A stretch of DNA of 36,884 nucleotides from an uncultured Candidatus Melainabacteria bacterium (GTDB lineage: Bacteria > Cyanobacteriota > Vampirovibrionia > Gastranaerophilales > Gastranaerophilaceae), in NCBI GenBank assembly GCA_945910425.1, contig CAMDYM010000011.1, positions 1-36,884 on the forward strand, in the 5' to 3' direction. The notes under the pieces were generated by a model. That model worked only from the letters and a program-made list of their open reading frames with translations. It was not told where the DNA came from and ran no database searches. Positions 6,909 through 31,889 of this stretch are shown one piece after another (positions within the stretch are counted from its first letter, which is position 1; each line of letters starts with the position of its first letter). The translations under genes were made by a program, and so were the position numbers.

Positions 6909-7604
6909 TTACTTATTATCCAAATCTATATCATAAGTATTACCACCATTGCCAAACAAACGACTGGTATTAGGACAATTACCCGACGGACACCAACGCT
7001 GTTTGACCGTAACATCTTTCCAAGGATAAATCACATTGATATCGTCAGTATACATCTTTTTATTCATACTATTAGTAAAATACATTACATACCTATCCTT
7101 GCCAAGCACATTCGGCCCCGAAAATCCGTTTACATCAACCAAAATCGGCCACTCATCATTACTGTAAAGATAATAACTCATCCCTGAAGCATCTATAAAG
7201 GCATAACTACCGTTAATACAACCTTTACCATTACTTGTTACAACTGAGCCTTGACCTGATTCTCCGTTACATTCCCAGCATTTTTTTGCATTATTCTCAA
7301 AACAAGTTGTTACACCCGCAAAATAAGCAGATAACGCTCTGAAATTCTTTCCAATCAAACCTTTACCTGTATTCGCTCCTGTTGAAACAAAACCGCCATC
7401 TGCTGTACTCACAATAGCACCGTCCTCAAGTGCTGATTTTAAAGCCTGGTTTAAGGTGCTGTAAGCCTTTCTATAAGATGCCTGATAACGTTTTTCACTA
7501 ATTTTTGCCATTAGATTTGGGATGGTAAGTGCAGCAACAACACCGATTATACCAAGGGTAATTAAAGTTTCTGCCAGTGTAAAAGCTGCTTTTTTAACCC
7601 TCAC
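6909..7604 (-). CDS. Type IV pilin-like / pseudopilin protein with prepilin cleavage motif
   Basis: The N-terminus reads VKKAA then FTLAETLITLGIIGVVAAL. This is a class III prepilin signal: basic leader, cleavage before Phe, Glu at +5 and a hydrophobic helix that spans the membrane and builds the filament core. The body has four Cys in CFENNAKKCWEC and GKGC and a C-terminal region with DVNGFSGPNVLGKD. Such proteins are processed by prepilin peptidase and assembled by a type IV pilus or type II secretion apparatus, none of which is encoded in this window. The frame stays open upstream to an ATG at 7784, but those codons lie in palindromic repeat DNA and read like translated repeats. I therefore favour the GTG at 7604, six codons before the cleavage site. 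AAGGA sits almost on top of this GTG, so the start is uncertain. The mature part would be about 225 residues. Confidence 0.75.
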   Translation of the reverse strand: MRVKKAAFTLAETLITLGIIGVVAALTIPNLMAKISEKRYQASYRKAYSTLNQALKSALEDGAIVSTADGGFVSTGANTGKGLIGKNFRALSAYFAGVTTCFENNAKKCWECNGESGQGSVVTSNGKGCINGSYAFIDASGMSYYLYSNDEWPILVDVNGFSGPNVLGKDRYVMYFTNSMNKKMYTDDINVIYPWKDVTVKQRWCPSGNCPNTSRLFGNGGNTYDIDLDNK

Positions 7605-7850
7605 ATCCTTTTCTGTCCTTCGGACACCCTCTCCCGCACACGGGCAAGGGTAAACATTACAGTCATTCTTACGACAGCTCTTCTTGTAGGCGAAGAATGA
7701 GCCGTACAAGGGAGGGTACCCCTTGAGGGTAAAGTCAGAATCTGTCAATGTTGATCCTTCCCGTAGGGAGTATTTCATCAGCATGGATAGATTCCGGATC
7801 CGGTCCGGAATAACGTTACATTTGTCGAAAGGAGAAAAACCTAAAAAGTT
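7605..7850. repeat. Mosaic of short palindromic elements upstream of the pilin gene
   Basis: About 250 bases are packed with GC-rich inverted repeats in an AT-rich genome. From left to right these are: GTCC-TTC-GGAC (about 7615-7624); CTCCCGCACACGGG; TCATTCTT...AAGAATGA (about 7663-7701); CAAGGG-n7-CCCTTG (about 7707-7725); CTTCCC-GTA-GGGAG (about 7757-7771); and ATTCCGGA-n5-TCCGGAAT (7791-7811). A run of eight C follows at about 7852-7859. Several pieces resemble interspersed palindromic repeats common in bacterial genomes. All of it to 7784 is open in the pilin frame. No other gene is visible here. Confidence 0.6.
7791..7811. repeat. Perfect 8-bp-arm palindrome ATTCCGGA-n5-TCCGGAAT
   Basis: The arms at 7791-7798 and 7804-7811 are perfectly complementary around TCCGG. 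The surrounding GATAG...AACG context matches the general look of intergenic repeats that carry ATTCCGGATC...TCCGGAAT. It marks the upstream end of the repeat mosaic next to the pilin gene. Confidence 0.6.
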
Positions 7851-27914: not shown

Positions 27915-28241
27915 ATGCATATAAATAAAATTTCCGCAACAAATTTTGGAAATCTGGCAAAAGGAAGGGCTTACCCTACTCCGGAAAAAAGAGAAAGAAC
28001 ATATAGCTATAATAATGACCTTTCAAAACCAACATCAAAAGAAGAAATGTATATTGACAAAAGGTTAAAAGAGCAAGATGCAAACTTTAAAAAAGCTATA
28101 GAAAAACAAAATGCTCTTATCGGTTCATCTTTGATTGCAATGGTTAACTACCTGAACGGAAATTCTGACGCTAATACAACCAGAGAACTTATTCAAAACA
28201 AACTTATAAAAAAACCAGAACAAGGGAGAATTGAAATCTAA
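27915..28241 (+). CDS. Unknown lineage-type protein (108 aa)
   Basis: I do not recognise a family. The protein starts MHINKISATNFGNLAKGRAYP, an opening with a short N-F-G element that I associate with Gastranaerophilales proteins of unknown role. It is hydrophilic and helical in the middle (YIDKRLKEQDANFKKAIEKQ) and has no membrane segment or signal peptide. AAGGAG at 27901-27906 lies 8 bases before the ATG, which decides the start over the longer frame from 27855. A TATAAT at 27888-27893 could be a -10. The stop overlaps the next start as TAATG, so the two are translated as a pair. Confidence 0.7.
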   Translation: MHINKISATNFGNLAKGRAYPTPEKRERTYSYNNDLSKPTSKEEMYIDKRLKEQDANFKKAIEKQNALIGSSLIAMVNYLNGNSDANTTRELIQNKLIKKPEQGRIEI

Positions 28242-28612
28242 TGAACGTAGCAAAACTAAACCCTATCGGATACGAAGCAAAAACCGAAAAAGGAAACACT
28301 TATAAAAAATCAAATTTATATAAAACTTTAGGAGCCTTATCTTTAGGAACTACATCCGTACTTGCATACACATCCAAAAACCAAATTGTAAAATCACTTA
28401 CTACAGCGTCAATTCTTGACACAATAGAAAGCCTTGCAAAGACTAAAGTATCACCTAAATTAAAACCTTTTGTCTTAGGATTATGTACAGTTGTAGATAT
28501 AGCCGGCGGTGCTTGGTTAGGTTCAACCCTAGACAATTATCTAAGTAAAAATCGTGCAAAAAAAGCTGATGCAGCAGCCGAAGAAGCTTCAAAAGTACAA
28601 ACTCAGGCTTAA
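28241..28612 (+). CDS. Unknown small membrane-associated protein (123 aa)
   Basis: I do not recognise a family. Two moderately hydrophobic stretches are present (about residues 28-45, LYKTLGALSLGTTSVLAY, and 76-97, PFVLGLCTVVDIAGGAWLGS), which may be membrane helices or amphipathic hairpins. The C-terminus is charged and alanine-rich (SKNRAKKADAAAEEASK). The start shares a base with the stop of the preceding gene (TAATG). A larger membrane protein with a similar look follows at 28853, so the three may act together; this is inference from position. Confidence 0.68.
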   Translation: MNVAKLNPIGYEAKTEKGNTYKKSNLYKTLGALSLGTTSVLAYTSKNQIVKSLTTASILDTIESLAKTKVSPKLKPFVLGLCTVVDIAGGAWLGSTLDNYLSKNRAKKADAAAEEASKVQTQA

Positions 28613-28665
28613 GGGTATTTACAAAAAAAATTTTTATACTATACTATTAGTAGAGGGAAATATAA

Positions 28666-28728
28666 ATGACACAAAACTTTTTACAAAAACATCATAAACA
28701 CAATCATATCGACCTGAAGGGGTTGTAG
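28666..28728 (+). CDS. Possible 20-residue His-rich leader peptide
   Basis: ATG at 28666 is preceded by AGAGGG with 8 bases spacing, a better Shine-Dalgarno sequence than many genes here. The peptide is MTQNFLQKHHKHNHIDLKGL, with four His in six residues. It ends at TAG 28726-28728, some 30 bases before a nested hairpin. Its position between two genes and in front of a terminator-like structure is that of a leader peptide or a small-RNA-encoded peptide. A TATACT at 28635-28640 could supply a promoter. No His biosynthesis gene follows, so classical attenuation of a his operon does not explain it. Coding status is uncertain. Confidence 0.35.
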   Translation: MTQNFLQKHHKHNHIDLKGL

Positions 28729-28761
28729 GATTGATGATGCGCTTGTAAAAATAATAAAAAT

Positions 28762-28837
28762 TCAATTCTTTATAAACACAACTTCTTCAGGATATTTAAC
28801 AAAAGCGAAGAAGTTGTTTTATTAGTAAAAGAATTGA
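28762..28837 (+). terminator. Nested hairpin with internal terminator in the 28853 gene leader
   Basis: The outer arms TCAATTCTTT (28762-28771) and AAAGAATTGA (28828-28837) are perfect complements. Inside them ACAACTTCTTC (28778-28788) pairs with GAAGAAGTTGT (28807-28817), followed by TTTATTAG. The inner hairpin plus T-rich tail looks like a Rho-independent terminator. The outer stem ends on GA of GAGG (28836-28839), the only Shine-Dalgarno-like sequence of the gene at 28853, so folding could also hide it. Confidence 0.55.
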
Positions 28838-28852
28838 GGTTAAAAGAAAATA

Positions 28853-30145
28853 ATGACAATTACAAGTATAATATCCGCTATCGGAAATAACAGTACAATT
28901 TACCCGCTATTAGTGCGTGACTGCTTTATAGAAGCCCCGTCAAAGATTTTGATTGCCCGTAAAGAAAACATGAAAGAATCCCGCGAGATTGCAAACGACG
29001 CAACCCGCGAAAGATTTATTGACGAATACTTCACCTCCGCAATCTGGCTTGGCGGAATTCCTGTCACAGAAAAAATTGTTGATAAATTTATTATTAAAAA
29101 AGGCTTTAATCCTGCTGTTAACCTAAATCTGTTTAAAGCAGACAAAACACGCGGTAAAAAATATCAAGGAATTGAATATAATATTAAAAAATTCGGTTCA
29201 ATGGCACAAGAAGATGTACAAAAAGCCGTTGCAGATTTAGTAAAAATAAAAAATAACAAAAGAGGATTTGAAAAACTTCTTACCAAAAAATTTGCAGCTG
29301 CAACAATTATTCCAACCGTGATTATGGGATTCATACTTCCTCCTTTAAATTTTGCATTGACAAGAAAATTACGTAAACAAAAAGAAGCAAACAAACCGCA
29401 AACTAACCAATTCACAAAACCTCGTCCGACATTCAGTGAATTTACGGGAAAAGACATCACATTTACAGGCGGAGCAAATATTATATCAACAATCGCAAAC
29501 TTAAGAACAGTTGATAAAATGGCAATATCAGACGGCGGACTAACAGTCGGAAGAGTTTCAACATCCCGTAACAAAGACGAAGCTTATATGAACGCATTTA
29601 GAATGACTGGTTCAATAATTCTGAACTTTGTAACCCCGGCTTATATTGCAAAAGGTTTAGATAAACTTGCAAAGAAACTGTTTAAAGTTAACGTAGACCT
29701 TGACCCGCTAATTTTAGGAAACAAAGAATTAATTGAAGCAATAAAAGCAGGTACCGTTGAATGCCCGAAAAACGGCAAAGCCCAAACCCTGTTTAATTTT
29801 ATAGATTCTAAACCAACAAGTTTATTCTCTCAATCAGCTCAAAAAATGGGTAAATTAACTTATCTTGACTCAGGAATAAGAGATCCGAGAAGATTTGTAG
29901 ATTTAAAAGACTTACGCAAATTCAGAAGAGAATTTGAGACGTTTATAAACAATGCAGCAGACTCAGGCAACATTGAAAGATTTGCAAGAAAAGCAAAAGC
30001 CGTAAAATGCTTTAATATTCTTGCAAACATAGGTATTTCAAGTTTCTTACTGGCGGTTGCACTGCCAAAAGCTCAGTATTTATTCAATAAAGCCGTAACA
30101 GGTTCTTACCTTGACCCGGGACTTGCAAAAAATAACACAAAATAA
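28853..30145 (+). CDS. Unknown multi-pass membrane protein (430 aa)
   Basis: I do not recognise a family beyond its lineage-type look. Probable membrane segments are at about residues 147-169 (FAAATIIPTVIMGFILPPLN), 251-267 (MTGSIILNFVTPAYIA) and 385-408 (CFNILANIGISSFLLAVALP). A motif ITFTGGANI lies at 202-210, next to LRTVDKMAISDGGLTVGRVSTSRNKDE. The rest is basic. The GAGG before the ATG has a long spacing of 13 bases and is partly in the upstream hairpin stem, so expression may be conditional. It follows two smaller unknown proteins and the leader ORF. Confidence 0.72.
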   Translation: MTITSIISAIGNNSTIYPLLVRDCFIEAPSKILIARKENMKESREIANDATRERFIDEYFTSAIWLGGIPVTEKIVDKFIIKKGFNPAVNLNLFKADKTRGKKYQGIEYNIKKFGSMAQEDVQKAVADLVKIKNNKRGFEKLLTKKFAAATIIPTVIMGFILPPLNFALTRKLRKQKEANKPQTNQFTKPRPTFSEFTGKDITFTGGANIISTIANLRTVDKMAISDGGLTVGRVSTSRNKDEAYMNAFRMTGSIILNFVTPAYIAKGLDKLAKKLFKVNVDLDPLILGNKELIEAIKAGTVECPKNGKAQTLFNFIDSKPTSLFSQSAQKMGKLTYLDSGIRDPRRFVDLKDLRKFRREFETFINNAADSGNIERFARKAKAVKCFNILANIGISSFLLAVALPKAQYLFNKAVTGSYLDPGLAKNNTK

Positions 30146-30182
30146 AGAATTTAAAATTTGATAAAATCCATCATTCCCCCCC

Positions 30183-30211
30183 TATACAAAAATCATTTTA
30201 CATGTTATTAT
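30183..30211 (+). promoter_or_regulatory. Promoter of rny
   Basis: TATACA (30183-30188) and TATTAT (30206-30211) are 17 bases apart, and TGT precedes the -10, making it extended. Transcription would start near 30218, leaving an untranslated leader of about 142 bases before rny. Confidence 0.6.
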
Positions 30212-30217
30212 ATAAAC

Positions 30218-30359
30218 AGATGTAGTAGGAAATATTTTTTGAATATATATGCAATGAGGATTATTTAAACTAAAAACTAAATAAGCGTACGGGTAGGATA
30301 CATGTACCCGGGCATTGCGTGTATTATAAAAAATAGAAAAGGATAAGGTAAATAACTTT
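30218..30359 (+). promoter_or_regulatory. Long 5' leader of rny
   Basis: The leader is AT-rich apart from a GC-rich patch at about 30287-30320. There CGGGTA and TACCCG form a hairpin around GGATACATG, next to GCATTGCG. AAGGT (30345-30349) lies about 10 bases before the rny ATG. No open frame longer than a few codons is present. The leader could be a site for autoregulation by RNase Y cleavage, which is inference. It does not match a riboswitch I recognise. Confidence 0.4.
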
Positions 30360-31889
30360 ATGGAAGCAAAAACCTTGTTATTAGCTATTGCGGCTATTAC
30401 GGTAATAGTCTTGGTTGCAATGCTGATTATTCAAAAAAACAAAGTTAAAAACGCTCTTGAGTCTATTGAAAAAGACAAAAAAGCGCTTCAAGACAAAGAA
30501 AAAATTCTCTACAAAGAAGCAAAAATTAAAGCAGTAGAAGAATTACAGGAAGACAGAGAACAATTAAATGAAGAAGAAAGAGAACGCAGACAAGAACTAA
30601 CAAGACAAGAACAAAAATTGGCAAAAAGAGAGGATATGCTTGAAGATAAAATTCAGGAATATACCGAAAAAGAAATCCAGACCCAAAAGAAATTAGACCA
30701 TTTGTTAGAAAAAGAAGATTACCTGGCAGAACTTGTTCAAAAGCAAACCGAAGAACTTGAAAGAATTTCAGGTATGTCAACAGAAGATGCGAAAAGAACT
30801 CTTTTAGAACAATTAAAAAATGACTTAGCTCAGGAGCAAATGCAATTAATCAGAGAAAACGAAGCTAAAATAAAAGAAATTTCACTTGAAAAGTCAAAAG
30901 AAATCTTATCATCAACAATGCAACGCTGTATGATAGAACAAGTAGTTGAAACAACTGTTTCAGTTGTAGGCTTGCCAAATGATGAAATGAAAGGACGTAT
31001 CATAGGACGTGAAGGACGTAATATCAGAGCATTAGAAACACTTACAGGCGTTGACTTAATCATTGATGATACTCCTGAAGCTGTTGTATTATCAAGCTTT
31101 GACCCTGTAAGACGTGAAATTGCAAAATTAACATTAGAAAAACTAATCGTCGACGGTAGAATCCACCCTGTAAGAATTGAAGAAATGGTTGAAAAAGCCA
31201 GAGAAGAAATTGATAAAAAGATTTGGACAGAAGGTGAAAACGCAGCATTAGAAATGGGTGTTATGGGCTTACATAAAGAGCTTATCAAAACACTTGGCAG
31301 ACTTTATTACAGAACAAGTTACGGTCAAAATGTTTTAAAACACTCACTTGAAGTCGGACATATCGCAGGAATGTTAGCGGCAGAACTCGGGGCAAACGAA
31401 AAAATCGCAAAACGTGCAGGTCTGCTACACGATATCGGAAAAGCCGTTGACCAAACTCAAGAAGGTACTCATATCCAATTAGGTGTAGAACTTGCTTCAA
31501 GATTTGGTGAAAAACCGGAAGTAATCCACGCAATCGAAGCTCACCATGATGATGTTGTAGCAAATACTATAGAAGCCGTACTTGTAAAAGTTGCCGATGC
31601 AATTTCAGCAGGCAGACCAGGTGCAAGACGCGATACTTTGGAAATTTATATTAAACGTCTTCAAAAAATCGAAGAAATCGTTAACAGCTACAAGGGTATC
31701 AAACAATCATTTGCAGTACAGGCTGGACGTGAAGTCAGAATCATTGTTCAAGCCGAAATGTTTGACGATTTGGCATCAGGCAAGCTTGCAAGAGATGTTG
31801 CAAAGCGTATTGAAGATGAACTGGATTACCCTGGCCAAATCAGAGTAACAGTTGTTAGAGAATTTAGAACAACAGAAATTGCAAAATAA
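30360..31889 (+). CDS. rny: Ribonuclease Y
   Basis: RNase Y is the membrane-anchored endoribonuclease that starts mRNA decay in many bacteria. The 509-residue protein has one N-terminal membrane helix (about residues 4-26), a long charged coiled coil (about 30-190), a KH domain ([20 protein letters not shown]), and an HD domain with [20 protein letters not shown] and AHHDDV. All expected catalytic residues are visible. It has its own promoter and a long leader. The metallophosphoesterase gene ymdB follows 62 bases after the stop, the same order as in Bacillus. Confidence 0.97.

Follow-up and report, generated by a model that had tools for sequence, protein, structure and literature searches.

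A putative histidine attenuator precedes the gene of a histidine-free protein in gut Gastranaerophilales

Introduction

The regulation of his operons by histidine attenuators is textbook knowledge. In the locus studied here, such a leader appears to precede a gene that is not a his gene. The locus lies in a window (the whole stretch of DNA analyzed) of 36,884 nucleotides from contig CAMDYM010000011.1 of an uncultured Candidatus Melainabacteria bacterium of the family Gastranaerophilaceae. A sequence-only reading of this window had described a His-rich leader with nested hairpins and had proposed either an attenuator controlling the downstream membrane protein or a small RNA with its own peptide; as the gene is not a his gene, it had expected the signal to be something other than histidine.

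Results

The leader and its gene are encoded on the plus strand, and the leader occupies positions 28618 to 28852. It begins with a sigma-70-type promoter-like sequence, TTTACA-16-TATACT (28618 to 28645; 10/12 in a consensus scan), an assignment that is only suggestive, given that scores were modestly above those of shuffled sequences (over 80 loci, the top-scoring site before the leader ATG averaged approximately 9.6/12, versus 8.47 in shuffles). The Shine-Dalgarno sequence AGAGGG (28652 to 28657) is located 8 nt upstream of an ATG (28666) that opens a His-rich ORF of 20 codons plus stop (28666 to 28728; MTQNFLQKHHKHNHIDLKGL*) whose translation is predicted. The four His codons (28690 to 28695, 28699 to 28701, and 28705 to 28707) are located in one arm of hairpin A:C (28678 to 28751), and strand C (28727 to 28751) forms the other. 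In the minimum free energy (MFE) fold, 28678 to 28686 pair with 28743 to 28751 and 28690 to 28695 pair with 28734 to 28739; changes on both sides were observed in helices 1, 2, 3, and 5. Strand B (CCTGAAGGGGTTGT, 28713 to 28726), the 5' half of a predicted antiterminator, is situated inside the 3' end of the leader ORF, and the stop codon (28726 to 28728) falls at its end, which is the placement seen in attenuators, where a terminating ribosome would cover strand B. Farther downstream, strand D (TCAATTCTTT, 28762 to 28771) is the perfect complement of the arm at 28828 to 28837 in strand G (AAAGAATTGA, 28828 to 28839); both were assigned from D:G pair counts and duplex energies. Strand G runs into the Shine-Dalgarno sequence of the gene, GAGG (28836 to 28839), on which helix D:G ends. 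Enclosed between D and G is a predicted intrinsic terminator, E:F (28778 to 28825), an 11-bp MFE hairpin of ACAACTTCTTC (28778 to 28788) with strand F, GAAGAAGTTGT (28807 to 28817), followed by the U tract TTTATTAG; nine of its 11 pairs (helices 7 and 8) show changes on both sides. Strand E (ACAACTTCTTCAGG, 28778 to 28791) is both the 5' half of this terminator and the 3' half of the antiterminator, as judged, like strand B, from the RNAalifold consensus, pair counts, and duplexes (for B, within versus across loci). Two folds, antiterminator B:E (14 pairs) and terminator E:F (11 pairs), thus rival for strand E and share 28778 to 28788, the shared strand characteristic of an attenuator.

The features named in the sequence-only reading, i.e., a well-spaced AGAGGG before a 20-codon His-rich ORF, perfect outer arms around an 11-bp hairpin with a T-rich tail, and a downstream GAGG overlapping the outer arm, were all found in the sequence. 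It had overlooked strand B, which can pair with the 5' arm of the terminator and the beginning of its loop (28778 to 28791), and the hairpin of the His-codon region with 28730 to 28751. The folding that it had suggested as a check gave -53.4 kcal/mol for the RNA from 28600 to 28870, compared with a mean of -34.1 for dinucleotide shuffles (z -5.1), and none of 200 shuffles was as low.

Searches for known elements and further copies gave the following results. (i) A generic terminator scan of the window did not pick up E:F, because its loop limit is 8 nt. (ii) Rfam covariance models run over the whole window at gathering score returned nothing relevant and no match to a T-box or to His_leader (the enteric his operon leader, which we take to be accession RF00514); a permissive search of 28600 to 30400, up to an E value of 5, likewise gave no match to either. 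(iii) No second copy of the element was found in its own genome, where other matches were short. (iv) A search of the same genome for other His-run leaders by pattern and reading frames yielded 32 matches, of which 30 were analyzed; the pattern misses the leader of the window itself. Many of these His runs were not in the frame of a short ORF or were located within longer reading frames, and a candidate at locus L195 was discarded, as its full reading shows no clear leader. Elsewhere in the window, the region from 30210 to 30360 (plus strand), before the RNase Y gene (30360 to 31889), is structured (-28.2 kcal/mol; z -3.4; none of 200 shuffles reached this value) and is possibly a regulatory leader; it had no Rfam match in the whole-window search.

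Both folds are conserved among relatives. RNAalifold, applied to 43 sequences, predicted B:E alone and unaided, with changes on both sides in five of nine pairs. On the same alignment, 91.7% of the cells were paired in the structure A:C plus E:F plus D:G, with both-side changes in 21 of 36 pairs (6.6 in shuffles), and 90.5% in B:E plus C:D, with such changes in 10 of 22 pairs (3.9 in shuffles); the covariation that the sequence-only reading had proposed to look for is therefore seen in terminator and antiterminator structures alike. Slid controls had 38 to 60% of the cells paired, a comparison in which the counted structures have an advantage since they were drawn from the window sequence, and the shuffles leave relatedness in place. 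Helix D:G was paired in 97.5% of the cells, with both-side changes in three of 10 pairs.

An alignment-free duplex check was carried out on 52 nonredundant loci out of 81. The mean B:E duplex energy was -22.8 kcal/mol within loci, -15.3 across loci, and -10.4 with B shuffled, and B:E was better than at least 95% of the cross-locus pairings in 24 of the 52 loci. The corresponding D:G values were -11.9, -9.6, and -7.3 kcal/mol, with 11 of 52 loci beating 95%; the C:D pairing inside the antiterminator was weak (-9.0 within, -8.1 across, -6.0 shuffled). A terminator overlapping strand E was present in 39 of the 52 loci. Only picks that overlap strand E were counted here, and picks other than E:F (e.g., L129, L133, L134, L135, and L148, and further L153, L161, L164, L171, and L172) were left out unless they did so. 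By our criteria, a terminator was absent in some loci, such as L130, L136, L137, L160, L162, and L170. In L130 and L160, CTCC before strand E can pair with GGAG before the gene, which suggests that these are translational versions of the attenuator; attenuators that sequester the ribosome binding site are mentioned in PMC9413887. Two other variations were noted. Loci L033, L036 to L040, and L043 carry insertions between the terminator and strand G of up to approximately 85 bases (L036), with the D/G complementarity kept. Loci L166, L177, and L178 (and L079) form a divergent leader class in which the ORF ends right after the His run (...HHCH*) and the usual B:E gives way to another long pairing (in L166, GGTTATAATGTG with CACATTATAACC).

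These features suggest the following mechanism. When charged His-tRNA is available, the ribosome would reach the leader stop codon and cover strand B, so that E:F folds into the terminator; in addition, the Shine-Dalgarno sequence of the gene may be bound up in helix D:G. When charged His-tRNA is scarce, the ribosome would stall at the His codons and leave strand B free to pair with E once E is made, the terminator would be blocked, and the gene would be transcribed. Without leader translation, the His-codon hairpin would form instead. Mask folding placed a ribosome on the second His codon of an RNA extending as far as strand E; 51 of the 52 loci then formed B:E (probability of at least 0.5), and 44 of the 52 did so without any ribosome. 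The absence of B:E with a ribosome at the stop codon follows from the construction of the mask. Over the 39 loci whose terminator overlaps strand E, the terminator had a mean equilibrium probability of 0.90 for a ribosome at the stop codon and 0.78 for ribosome-free RNA; in the stalled state, the value was 0.55, and the terminator thus still competes well at equilibrium. Opening of the Shine-Dalgarno sequence on stalling increased in only 24 of 52 loci, so the folding test does not support a translational layer. The element is very probably a ribosome-mediated histidine attenuator, and the attenuator itself, with its conserved and covarying ORF, exclusive folds, and terminator, is strongly supported computationally, in line with the first of the two earlier proposals. 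The response to histidine itself and the second, translational layer are steps that we infer.

Leader and gene are conserved together. In 37 of the 46 genomes of the genus, the leader-region DNA is kept upstream of the same gene; of the remaining nine, eight have no orthologue and one (G042) has a fragment cut at the contig end. An ATG-started ORF with three to seven His codons was found in 43 of 44 orthologous upstream regions. In the remaining locus, L034 (G026:C23), His codons lie in frame just past the stop codon of the upstream gene without an ATG of their own, so that either the leader was lost or another start is used. The analysis was extended to 80 named Gastranaerophilales orthologues, the best 80 of 201 relatives, most of them titled Candidatus Gastranaerophilales, Melainabacteria, or "uncultured bacterium"; among the nearest 27, many appear to share their assembly with a genus genome. 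A leader ORF with three to seven His codons precedes all 80, and the same rule was satisfied by eight of 312 regions upstream of other long ORFs in these loci. The loss of ORF and stems beside an intact gene, by which the attenuator proposal was to be judged, was thus seen neither in those 37 genus genomes nor in the 80 orthologues. His accounts for 21% of the leader peptides, while the remaining residues, the length, and the stop position vary between genera. The leader His codons are CAT in 338 and CAC in 12 cases, versus 80 and 51 in 23 other ORFs of the window. Among 20 further loci of this His type, hand-picked from the list and fetched after the hypothesis had been formed, all 20 had a leader with at least three His codons, and 14 of the 20 proteins were free of His (seven His in total). 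In the loci examined, the element directly adjoins this gene on its upstream side. Preceding the attenuator in the window (27915 to 28612, plus strand) are two small ORFs of 108 and 123 aa, neither with a Pfam or NCBIfam family above the cutoff; relatives of the second, 123-aa ORF occur upstream in only some loci.

The controlled gene (28853 to 30145) encodes a protein of 430 aa, which we analyzed by composition, hydropathy, and AlphaFold2 modeling. It contains no His, and the 80 orthologues contain six among 33,884 residues, with 75 of the 80 having none. Neighboring ORFs of at least 200 aa contain 1.86% His, and none of 104 neighboring ORFs of at least 400 aa is His-free. In the variable columns of an alignment of 28 orthologues, His occupied four of 4,056 cells, compared with 1.1% in 12 other alignment rows. 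Since the protein lacks His, it could be synthesized in full while histidine is missing. A 291-aa ORF elsewhere in the window (6909 to 7784, minus strand) is also without His, as is expected by chance now and then at such a length. Profile searches with Pfam and NCBIfam found no family above the cutoff for the 430-aa protein, amino acid transporter families included, and no match to a family of His biosynthesis; the gene is no recognized gene of His biosynthesis or transport. Its PDB sequence relatives were no better than an E value of 0.23. The AlphaFold2 model is helical, with a mean pLDDT of 83; Foldseek gave no match at an E value of 0.001 or better, and the best VIA-align Z score, 6.1, is within the range given for common arrangements. 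Rows with an ABC-exporter-like fold (Z of 4 to 6) were rejected as within the noise for helical models. Hydropathy revealed two strong hydrophobic segments and one weak segment, so association with the membrane is likely and a carrier with many spans is not suggested. The neighboring genes vary between loci and point to no functional partner.

The occurrence of the gene is linked to the loss of histidine biosynthesis. No histidinol dehydrogenase (HisD, PF00815) occurs in any of the 46 genus genomes, and every one of the 23 genomes examined outside the family has one. Within the family but outside the genus, HisD was found in two of 68 genomes with a His-type gene and in nine of 20 without (Fisher test, 1.2e-5, with relatedness ignored and the threshold for "His-type present" chosen after inspection of the data). 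This split recurs within genera: in g52, HisD without a His-type gene is found in G147 and G153 and the opposite combination in G151, G156, and G168, and in g55 G162 and G166 are divided in the same way. HisG (PF01634) calls matched the HisD calls in 26 of 26 genomes. Strict exclusion has exceptions, as G050 and G056 hold both HisD and the His-type gene; neither is present in 11 of the 20 family genomes that lack the gene or in eight genus genomes. The His-type gene therefore appears to be largely exclusive with histidine biosynthesis within its family. This exclusion, the purging of His from the gene, and the retention of the leader His codons in 80 of 80 loci while flanking residues vary indicate histidine as the signal, contrary to the earlier expectation of another one.

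Because the gene occurs mostly in genomes without His biosynthesis, we consider it plausible, at slightly less than even confidence, that the protein helps His auxotrophs to obtain or conserve histidine. Alternatively, it may be an effector of starvation or arrest, a membrane-associated protein that slows growth or remodels the envelope at low histidine without acquiring it. The lack of a transporter family or fold, the few hydrophobic segments, and the lack of partner genes would agree with such a role, which we nevertheless regard as rather doubtful: near-exclusion with His biosynthesis suits supply better, and the weak or absent matches leave transport possible.

Distant relatives of the window protein, with approximately 23 to 34% identity, form a second type that is associated with arginine. 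Short ORFs with CGN-CGN dicodons, often two in tandem, precede the Arg-type genes in 30 of 32 loci, compared with 13 of 304 controls; L213 had no match and was excluded from this set. The Arg-type loci are L089 (G000:C5:300-3000), L091, L093, L096, L209 to L228, and L258 to L277, and the second tandem leader usually ends in ...MNLIWGL* or a similar sequence immediately before the gene. In the Arg-type genes, seven of 389 Arg codons are CGN and 382 are AGR, whereas CGN accounts for 1,246 of 3,467 Arg codons (36%) in neighboring ORFs and 366 of 1,074 in His-type genes. His is retained in the Arg-type proteins (182 of 13,807 residues; approximately 1.1 to 1.3%). In 20 further Arg-type loci, a CGN-CGN leader was found in 17 and CGN made up 11 of 241 Arg codons; L265, L272, and L273 had no such leader within 450 nt. 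A B:E-like pairing of the first Arg leader was less clear (-15.4 within, -13.1 across, -8.7 shuffled; 23 loci). In the phylogenetic tree, the His-type proteins form one clade (100/99), with the Arg-type proteins as a weakly supported sister group (86/46). A third paralogue family (L238 to L243, e.g., G000:C44), of approximately 500 to 530 aa, has no visible leader and no purging of His or CGN.

Argininosuccinate synthase (PF00764) is missing in the sampled family genomes except G052. In the rest of the order, it was found in one of seven genomes with an Arg-type gene and in 13 of 15 without (Fisher test, 0.002, with relatedness ignored and the threshold for "Arg-type present" chosen after the data were inspected). 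Only full-length or long matches were counted; the many short PF00764 matches in frames of approximately 355 aa are presumably other PP-loop proteins. Since the His-type genes are nearly devoid of His codons and the Arg-type genes of CGN, each gene shuns the codons that its own leader tests, a pairing which argues that these genes would be made during a shortage of the cognate charged tRNA.

Such a shortage could also arise if the leaders sensed one tRNA (tRNA-His or the CGN-reading tRNA-Arg) rather than the amino acid; the tRNA would be lost, e.g., through an anticodon nuclease or the selective loss of its charge, and the codon-avoiding genes would still yield a protective or effector protein. 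The Arg-type genes speak for this idea in that they shun CGN and keep AGR, i.e., they avoid the codons of one tRNA and not the amino acid, and a simple shortage of arginine would hit AGR too unless its isoacceptor stays charged. Selective charging (PMC1183508) explains the retention of AGR without tRNA damage, however, and a link with the loss of the pathway for that very amino acid is expected for nutrition and not for an attack on tRNA. His has no second isoacceptor family that would separate the two readings. We judge a tRNA sensor unlikely. That chemistry, such as metal avoidance, accounts for the lack of His in the protein, with the leader being a separate matter, is very improbable: the family is moderately His-poor, the Arg-type paralogues included, but the Arg-type avoidance concerns synonymous codons, which is beyond protein chemistry, and the avoidance is reciprocal, as CGN is normal in His-type genes and His is kept in Arg-type proteins. 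The least credible explanation is the free small RNA with its own peptide proposed earlier, unrelated to the downstream gene, because the leader and its gene are found side by side in the loci examined, the non-His residues of the peptide vary freely, and the antiterminator and helix D:G, which ends on the Shine-Dalgarno sequence of the gene, are sensible only for readthrough, even though termination would set free a leader transcript of approximately 170 nt with a conserved ORF, which could still exist as a short RNA.

Discussion

The anatomy of the element, its conservation and covariation, the purging of His from the gene, and the link with the loss of hisD and hisG are supported by sequence. 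We found no report of the element, the protein family, or the pairing of leader and gene in open-licence papers. Several known systems resemble it in part. (i) Like the enteric his leader and the His attenuators of Firmicutes described in PMC9413887, the element combines a His-codon ORF and a pause-type hairpin with a mutually exclusive terminator and antiterminator. Unlike known his leaders, it has no Rfam match, its target is no recognized his gene, belongs to no known family, and is His-free, its host lacks hisD and hisG, and a terminator seems to be dispensable in some relatives. (ii) His T-boxes and attenuators on transporters of auxotrophs (PMC9413887) are, as predicted for this element, His-responsive RNAs on genes of His auxotrophs, presumably for supply; in contrast to the T-box, the element of the window uses a leader peptide, and its target has no transporter homology. 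(iii) The cognate amino acid bias of biosynthetic enzymes (PMC4209129) is similar in that proteins required at a time of shortage contain little of the amino acid that is lacking. Here, however, the absence is near total and concerns a nonbiosynthetic protein, and in the Arg paralogues it operates at the level of synonymous codons. (iv) In the selective charging of isoacceptors, according to PMC1183508, leaders likewise have sensitive codons and shortage genes insensitive ones; what differs here is that, within a single paralogue family, leaders use CGN dicodons and genes use AGR in an all-or-none manner. (v) The Salmonella speF leader, as described in PMC6386406, also controls a downstream gene through arginine-dependent alternative conformations, but that gene encodes a decarboxylase, whereas the Arg-type leaders, often two in tandem, precede CGN-poor relatives of the window protein. 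The attenuator would work in the known manner of his leaders; unusual are the match between the codon tested in the leader and the codon shunned by the gene, and the existence of two paralogous versions of this match, one of them at the level of synonymous codons.

We give an even chance to the broader proposal that these proteins are a new auxotrophy-linked, membrane-associated family of the Gastranaerophilales, in which the leader of each leader-bearing paralogue tests one tRNA and the gene is purged of its codons (CAY in the His type, CGN in the Arg type), providing a starvation-proof system of acquisition or sparing that appears as the pathway disappears. At this locus, a probable His attenuator controls a His-free protein of no known family in gut bacteria that are unable to make histidine, and the protein could be completed during the absence of histidine; the paralogues show the corresponding arrangement for the CGN codons of arginine. 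The Arg-type genes offer a natural test of the ideas of cognate bias and selective charging, because they split the avoidance of codons from the avoidance of an amino acid. The features combined here, namely, a gene of no known family that is His-free, preceded by a His leader, and exclusive with hisD, may serve as a search recipe for more auxotrophy genes. The matched leader and gene would reveal, from sequence alone, which shortage the gene serves, and this pairing offers a testable function for an unannotated family in a little-studied gut lineage.
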